Source: Opitutia bacterium
Lineage (GTDB): Bacteria > Verrucomicrobiota > Verrucomicrobiia > Opitutales > Opitutaceae
Length of the DNA: 64,000 nucleotides
Reading direction: 5' to 3'
Assembly (NCBI GenBank): GCA_947453695.1
Contig: CANGHW010000009.1
Coordinates: 1 to 64,000 of the forward strand
Shown: positions 43,680-48,883 of the stretch, piece by piece
How the letters are laid out: each line of letters opens with the position of its first letter
Numbering within the stretch: position 1 is the stretch's first letter
The notes under the pieces: generated by a model
What the model saw: the letters and a program-made list of their open reading frames with translations, nothing else
What the model was told of the DNA's origin: nothing
Database searches by the model: none
Translations under genes and position numbers: made by a program

Positions 43680-43802
43680 GGCGGGAGGGATTTTGAGTTG
43701 GCGGACGAAGGCAGGTTAGTGCTGGAGGGAAAGTGAATGCAACGTCGCGCTGGCGGGCGGTTTTGCAGTTGTTTTTCGAGAGACGCGACGCACGGTGGCG
43801 GC

Positions 43803-44129
43803 ATGAGTCTCAATCGGTGCGAGCAACGGGTCTTTGACTACTGGCAAGGTCATGCCACGGAGAGACAGTTCTGGCAGGAGAAAGTTCGCGGCGTGGCGAA
43901 ATCGACGGGCGATGACTTTGTGGCAGCGGCGCGGCTCGATGCGGAATTGTGGCGCTACTACCAGGAGCGTTGTGGCGTGGTGCCGGTCTTCAAGGACGCG
44001 GCCCGGCACGAGGGTTTGCAGCGCACCAGCATGAAGAACCTCGCAGAGTTGGTGTTGCGCCTCTGGTTGGAGCCACGGCCCAAGAAAAAGCGGGCCGAGT
44101 GCGAGCCTCCCCAGCTCCCTTACGCGTAA
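43803..44129 (+). CDS. small protein of unknown function
   Basis: 108 aa from ATG 43803, the second in-frame ATG; the first at 43737 adds 22 residues of unlikely composition. It is helical, with SLNRCEQRVFDYWQGHATER and DAELWRYYQERC, no signal and no membrane segment, and a basic tail (EPRPKKKRAEC). It does not match any family I know. It is followed directly by the 21-bp repeat array. Confidence 0.65.
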   Translation: MSLNRCEQRVFDYWQGHATERQFWQEKVRGVAKSTGDDFVAAARLDAELWRYYQERCGVVPVFKDAARHEGLQRTSMKNLAELVLRLWLEPRPKKKRAECEPPQLPYA

Positions 44130-48202: not shown

Positions 48203-48296
48203 GGAGAGAAATCCCACGGGGCCAGGAGTTTACGCCCGTGCGAAAAAAATCGTGCGGCGATTTGGAACTTTCGCGGACCTGTGCTCTCATAAGAGA

Positions 48297-48393
48297 CAGA
48301 TCACTTTTCTCCTCCGCCTAGCGGGGGAGAATGGGGTAAGTAAGAAAGCAATGGACGGGCCGCTTAGGGGTAGGCGGCCCGTCCTCTTTTTTT
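48297..48393 (+). ncRNA. structured small RNA, copy 1 of a tandem pair
   Basis: Hairpin 1 is TCTCCTCCGC (48308-48317) with GCGGGGGAGA (48321-48330) and a 3-nt loop. A linker ATGGGGTAAGTAAGAAAGCA follows, then hairpin 2, GACGGGCCGC (48354-48363) with GCGGCCCGTC (48374-48383), loop TTAGGGGTAG, then CTC and seven T. Upstream, TTTGGAAC (48261-48268) is shared with copy 2 at the same distance, a candidate ECF-sigma -35. No ORF fits the segment. The second copy has the same layout with compensatory changes, which supports an RNA gene. Confidence 0.78.
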
Positions 48394-48502
48394 GCCCAGA
48401 CGGGCGGGCGGAGCCGGACGGGCAATCTACCAACCGGGCGAAAAAGGCGGAAAAAATGCGGGTGCGATTTGGAACAATCAGTGAACCGTGCTTTCGTAGA
48501 TT

Positions 48503-48598
48503 CAGATCACTTTTCTCCTCCGCTTAGCGGGGGAGAATGGGGGAAGTAAGAAAGCAATGGGCGGACTGCTTAGGGATAGGCAGTCCGCCCTCTTTTTT
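48503..48598 (+). ncRNA. structured small RNA, copy 2 of a tandem pair
   Basis: Same layout 206 bases after copy 1: CAGATCACTT, hairpin 1 TCTCCTCCGC/GCGGGGGAGA with loop TTA, linker ATGGGGGAAGTAAGAAAGCA, and hairpin 2 GGCGGACTGC (48560-48569) with GCAGTCCGCC (48580-48589), loop TTAGGGATAG, then CTC and six T. Compared with copy 1, three pairs of hairpin 2 change on both sides (A-T to G-C, G-C to A-T, C-G to T-A) so pairing is kept. The loop differs by one base. TTTGGAAC occurs at 48468-48475. Confidence 0.78.
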
Positions 48599-48883
48599 GC
48601 CCAAAGGGCAAGGTGGGGAGGGATTTGACCTTCAAAATGACCGAGGTCGAAACATCTCTCCCCGACTTCGGCGCCGATTTCGGTAAACCGGGGCAGCGTG
48701 GTGGCGGAATTACTGCCTCAGCTTTTGGCTCAGTTCCCCTTTGATTCGAACTCAGCGTGCCCGTCGCCGGGGAAACTCGATGGCAGGTTGGGCAGTAGCA
48801 GCCGACGAGTCCGCGGACGACGCGCTTGGCAACGGGCCACACGTGGAGTCGCGGATCACGGCGGCGGCCAGGGCGCGCGCGGA
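48599..48883. other. gap, nothing recognised
   Basis: Between the second small RNA and the convergent dehydrogenase subunit gene. No ORF with coding character and no strong hairpin apart from the short GCCC/GGGC immediately after the T-run. Confidence 0.5.

Follow-up and report, generated by a model that had tools for sequence, protein, structure and literature searches.

Tandem units in an Opitutia genome belong to an undescribed, order-wide family of predicted structured small RNAs

The LhrC family of small RNAs in Listeria comprises multicopy homologues, some of them arranged in tandem, whose single-stranded regions repeat short pairing motifs; these motifs are C-rich and target Shine–Dalgarno (SD) sequences. 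RNAs of the CsrB/RsmY type instead repeat a protein-binding GGA motif in loops and linkers. A 2022 review counts 8 distinct annotated small RNAs in the PVC group, including the Verrucomicrobia, versus 345 in the Proteobacteria (PMC9029176, Table 1), and our search of one open-access literature collection returned nothing on small RNAs of Opitutus or Opitutaceae. Here, we describe two units in a 64,000-nt stretch of DNA from an Opitutia bacterium (the window), and conclude that they are paralogues of a previously undescribed, multicopy small RNA distributed across the order Opitutales, rather than an isolated duplication.

The two units (48302-48396 and 48508-48602, both on the forward strand and each ~95 nt long) lie 206 nt apart from start to start and are 89% identical over 101 nt, and over the 52 upstream nucleotides that include a promoter-like element, identity drops to 71%. 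Their features are given below, with scores from a covariance model (R1) trained on the four clear copies found in the window's source genome; E-values of R1, and of the second model introduced below (R2), are approximate, and copies used in training necessarily match.

48261-48291, forward strand: ECF-like promoter element of copy 1, TTTGGAAC (-35-like) followed after ~16 nt by CTCTCATA (-10-like); placed by orthologue spacing, with a putative function
48302-48396, forward strand: small RNA copy 1; R1 score 111.5 bits, E = 1.1e-24 (copy in the R1 training set); fold z = -6.0
48307-48331, forward strand: hairpin 1 of copy 1 (TTCTCCTCCGC - CTA - GCGGGGGAGAA), from the fold and from co-varying pairs in homologues
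48332-48352, forward strand: linker of copy 1, TGGGGTAAGTAAGAAAGCAAT, with the first GGGGUAA motif and an A-rich stretch; GGGGTAA in 124 of 136 distinct homologues
48353-48384, forward strand: hairpin 2 of copy 1, with the second motif in its loop (UAGGGGUA, 48365-48372); loop in 130 of 136 distinct homologues
48385-48393, forward strand: T-rich tract of copy 1, predicted intrinsic terminator, from the sequence; T-rich tract in most homologues
48468-48498, forward strand: ECF-like promoter element of copy 2, TTTGGAAC ... CTTTCGTA, from the sequence and comparison of the repeats
48508-48602, forward strand: small RNA copy 2; R1 score 110.5 bits, E = 2.0e-24 (copy in the R1 training set); fold z = -6.6
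48513-48537, forward strand: hairpin 1 of copy 2 (loop TTA), from the fold
48538-48558, forward strand: linker of copy 2, TGGGGGAAGTAAGAAAGCAAT, with the first motif altered (GGGGGAA), from the sequence and comparison of the copies
48559-48590, forward strand: hairpin 2 of copy 2, with the loop motif altered (UAGGGAUA) and three compensatory changes relative to copy 1
48591-48598, forward strand: T-rich tract of copy 2, predicted intrinsic terminator, from the sequence

Both units fold far more stably than dinucleotide-preserving shuffles (0 of 200 shuffles reached either fold; z-scores as listed), and both end as intrinsic terminators do, with a GC-rich hairpin followed by a T-rich tract; the transcript of copy 1 probably starts a few nucleotides upstream of the model match. 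The original prediction, made from the two copies only, had described tandem units at this distance whose second hairpin keeps its pairing, and both features can be read in the sequence: hairpin 2 carries three two-sided substitutions between the copies (A-U/G-C, G-C/A-U and C-G/U-A). The arms of hairpin 1 are identical in the two copies, as had been proposed, around a triloop of CTA in copy 1 or TTA in copy 2. The supposed 10-nt loop of hairpin 2 (TTAGGGRTAG) did not stand, as its inner U-A and A-U pairs close a tetraloop, GGGG in copy 1 and GGGA in copy 2, an arrangement kept in 99 of ~101 distinct relatives; and the linker, described as near-identical, is indeed a shared region yet differs between the copies at the first motif (GGGGTAAG versus GGGGGAAG). 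Copy 2 thus departs from the family form at both occurrences of an otherwise nearly invariant motif (GGGGGAA within 48538-48558, and UAGGGAUA with GGGA at 48573-48576), with its stems still paired through the compensatory changes, and because both motifs are altered this copy may be diverging from the rest of the family.

Homologues of the units are widespread within the order. Searching the window's source genome at the DNA level revealed two further copies, both on the reverse strand of other contigs (C31:24679-24771 and C60:9944-10033), making four clear copies in all. With R1, the RNA was found in all 37 same-family genomes searched (window genome included), at one to seven copies each, with weak matches in some other families of the order; with R2, built from 105 matches and so partly from sequences that it then finds, the RNA was found in 85 of the 132 genomes of the order. 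Outside the order, three matches, all weak (E of 3e-5 or worse), were obtained among a 338-genome sample of the phylum. This covariance-model survey of the Verrucomicrobia, which the original prediction had called for, speaks against its alternative of a recently duplicated inert sequence, given homologues order-wide. Within the genus, the RNA is 90-98% identical and its flanks 31-74%. In a pattern search of ~85,000 species (GGGGTAASTAAGAAAGN{12,30}TAGGGGTA), the matches listed were records titled Opitutaceae, Opitutia and other Verrucomicrobia or Verrucomicrobiota, together with two records titled only 'bacterium' and one filed under Parcubacteria (GW2011_GWA2_36_10). The last, a perfect match to the pattern (L302), is probably a mis-binned Opitutales contig. 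Viral contigs gave no match.

As originally proposed, the RNA corresponds to no Rfam family: searches with Rfam 15 yielded no match in the window at or above the gathering score and, with permissive filters, a best sub-threshold score of 22.5 bits against a gathering score of 70, and none of 12 diverse homologous loci had a match at the RNA. A weaker fifth relative in the window's own genome (L040; G000:C31:34911-34986, reverse strand; R2 E-value, 1.2e-5) resembles a variant with three hairpins, the additional one lying between linker motif and A-rich stretch, and has UUAAGGGGUUA as its terminator loop; similar variants were seen at L100:10521-10604 and L079:3001-3082.

Selection on RNA structure, originally proposed from two copies, is borne out by more than 130 sequences. 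Two-sided changes were found at 23 of the 25 base pairs among 101 distinct aligned sequences, and 95.0% of cells were paired, compared with 77.3% when partners were shuffled and 38-48% when they were slid by one to three columns, a score that is favoured by the fitting of this alignment to the structure. RNAalifold applied to the same alignment also found the two hairpins, and 17 of the 19 pairs that it predicted show changes on both sides. As the stems change, two short elements stay fixed, the terminator loop UAGGGGUA in 130 and the linker GGGGUAA in 124 of the 136 distinct sequences, so that the conserved element is GGGGUA, presented in the linker and again in the terminator loop. The loop also appeared in all 39 sense-strand matches of a further set, drawn mostly from R2-fetched loci in other genera and families (a few of these loci are also among the sequences from which R2 was built). 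UAGGGGUA/TAGGGGTA occurs a single time in the 64-kb window, in copy 1, and in the other fetched loci TAGGGGTA occurs, with few exceptions, once per RNA copy; we therefore rejected the idea that it is a general terminator loop.

Gene order around the copies was recurrent at three loci, whose orthology rests on heuristic gene calls; gene names were read from the translations. Locus 1 lies between a ygfZ-like gene and an aroF-like DAHP synthase gene (33 of the 37 same-family genomes), locus 2 adjoins a conserved small gene and in many cases precedes phoH (25 of 37), and locus 3 precedes a cvfB-like S1 gene (7 of 37). Judged from sequence, each of these three locus classes has its own promoter-like element at a fixed spacing from the tip of hairpin 1, with motifs that were picked after inspection of the sequences. 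In 33 of 34 aroF-linked copies (one entry with coordinates outside the scanned interval being left out), TTGAC stands 54-57 nt before the tip, compared with 1-2 of 34 in control intervals, and is followed in many copies by a TAT-rich -10-like site. GGAAC, GAAAC or GAACC is present 30-110 nt upstream of the tip in 20 of the 25 phoH/small-gene-class and window copies (controls, 0-9 of 25), mostly at 50-57 nt and often with a CGTC- or TTAC-like -10, and all 8 cvfB-linked copies have CTACTG exactly 75 nt upstream, with CTAATA ~16 nt before it. In the window, TTTGGAAC (48261-48268 and 48468-48475) precedes the RNA matches by 41 and 40 nt; copy 1 was the sole match when its own genome was scanned for the ECF-like element with a pattern that was too strict to be informative. 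The ECF-type promoter of the original prediction is thus supported by the homologues, short of proof, and we infer that the window copies may be under ECF control.

The small conserved gene (MSLNRxEQRVFDYWQ...) directly precedes the RNA in many relatives; its homologue in the window (43737-44129, forward strand) lies 4 kb upstream of the RNA instead, so the window locus appears to be rearranged. In a second genome of the genus, the copy next to the small gene matches copy 1 at 97% identity; given this match and the homologue 4 kb upstream, copy 1 is probably the orthologue of the small-gene/phoH class, with copy 2 probably its duplicate. Close pairs of RNA copies were also observed in other genomes (L073, L096, L104, L120, L125, L103, L175 and L176); for some of these (L073 and L104) the nearest relative is the neighbouring copy, suggesting that local duplication has happened repeatedly.

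A multicopy RNA with one signal behind different promoters points to a shared regulator. With moderate confidence, we infer that the family consists of small RNAs that are transcribed and act in trans through the duplicated GGGGUA, most likely by base-pairing with target mRNAs independently of Hfq and ProQ. Each ~100-120-nt intergenic RNA would start at a promoter of its own and comprise a 5′ hairpin, a linker and a terminator hairpin; the linker would be single-stranded, offering GGGGUAA and the A-rich stretch, and the terminator loop would expose UAGGGGUA. GGGGUA in linker and loop would then be the recognition element and the stems its scaffolds, with pairing to C-rich mRNA sites (ACCCCA- or UACCCC-like). 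As paralogues with the same motif would stand behind sigma-70-like, ECF-like and a third type of promoter, different signals could feed one target set.

Independence from the two chaperones is suggested by searches of 34 genomes, in none of which was Hfq (PF17209; positive controls matched in 5 genomes) or ProQ (PF04352; matches in E. coli as positive control) found; for these genomes, we rejected an Hfq- or ProQ-dependent small RNA. Target sites were sought around 556 predicted starts in 0.8 Mb (~13%) of one relative's genome, where TACCCC showed no enrichment and ACCCCA was mildly raised, close to the Markov expectation, in a comparison that relied on a crude heuristic gene caller (which gave just 305 ATG starts) and would hardly detect targets numbering a few dozen. 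This lack of enrichment weighs against pairing, as do the failure to find either chaperone and the alteration of both motifs in copy 2. An apparent excess of CCCC immediately upstream of ATG starts (11 versus 1.4) was dropped as a candidate, as the position-wise preference for C predicts ~8.5 by hand calculation. In one genome (G011, L204-L243), C is strongly preferred at -1 (50%) and -2 (44%) before predicted ATG starts, these starts being heuristic calls.

The same recognition element could serve a protein rather than mRNAs. An RNA-binding protein might recognize GGGGUA in the linker and loop and be sequestered by the paralogues, in the manner of CsrB/RsmY or 6S RNA with another partner, a possibility that we entertain tentatively. 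The presence of the same motif twice per RNA fits such titration, as do the constancy of both motif copies, the nearly invariant U-A and A-U pairs that close the loop even though co-variation would be possible there, the failure to find Hfq or ProQ, and the lack of enrichment of complementary hexamers at predicted starts; however, a sponge with only two sites per RNA would need very high expression. The obvious candidate partner, CsrA, can be set aside as a general one: it was found in 16 of the 34 genomes and not in many RNA-bearing genomes, and the motif GGGGUA lacks GGA, on which grounds we rejected a CsrA sponge of the CsrB/RsmY type. A more elaborate version, an Opitutales-specific hub in which an undescribed GGGGUA-binding protein would be titrated by up to seven paralogues, each with its own sigma factor or signal, in genomes where neither Hfq nor ProQ was found, strikes us as doubtful; were it true, copy 2 would be a paralogue with changed specificity. 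Between pairing and titration, in both of which GGGGUA would be the recognition element, we prefer pairing.

It is unlikely that the RNA acts in cis, for example as a leader or attenuator of the DAHP synthase gene with a conditional terminator. The aroF-, phoH- and cvfB-linked copies do lie upstream of a gene on the same strand, but the downstream genes are unrelated between loci and, in the window as at many further loci, are encoded on the other strand, the part from linker to terminator is the same whatever gene follows, and the folds contain no alternative antiterminator; the inconsistent gene order led us to reject a leader of one gene or a riboswitch. Very unlikely, too, is a conserved terminator or mobile repeat (REP- or MITE-like) devoid of RNA function: several copies per genome, tandem pairs and, in some genomes, differing neighbours would suit a repeat, but not promoter-like elements that are particular to each locus and fixed in spacing, three loci retained vertically in different genera, conservation of the linker outside the hairpins, the lack of a match in viral contigs, or a loop that is no general terminator loop. 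Least credible, and to our mind very improbable, is an RNA directed against ribosome-binding sites through the CUCCUCC of hairpin 1, as the original prediction had suggested from its presence in both window copies, or a ribosome decoy acting through GGGG and the anti-SD (GGGGU is predicted by duplex calculation to pair weakly with the 16S rRNA 3′ end, its tail taken from general knowledge, at -6 to -6.6 kcal/mol), as just 19 of the 136 distinct homologues contain CUCCUCC, buried in the stem of highest stability, whose bases co-vary freely, which led us to reject it as a functional motif family-wide, and an SD-like GGAGGUGA would pair at -14.7 kcal/mol, yet GGAG is found in the loop of 0 of 136.

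On the preferred trans-acting reading, paralogues that share an effector motif but stand behind different promoters would allow RNA-based signal integration to be tested. Spread through the order in multiple, co-varying copies, in genomes with no detectable Hfq or ProQ, the family offers a concrete entry to riboregulation in Opitutales, with a defined motif, defined loci in the Opitutaceae and a working covariance model. Among described RNAs, asX1, the L20 leader and CC1840 show a weak structural resemblance (20-22.5 bits versus gathering scores of 50-70). With CsrB/RsmY, the family shares a motif repeated in loop and linker, but here the motif is GGGGUA and CsrA was often not found. With the LhrC family of Listeria (PMC13350326), it shares several homologous copies, partly in tandem, and a repeated short motif, which unlike that of LhrC is G-rich, with no homology between the two. 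The cyanobacterial Yfr1, Yfr2 and Yfr10 (PMC6778093) are likewise small-RNA families that extend over an entire bacterial clade; the Opitutales RNA has no sequence or Rfam match to them, belongs to another phylum and has GGGGUA as its motif, and it combines both presentations of that motif in one RNA.
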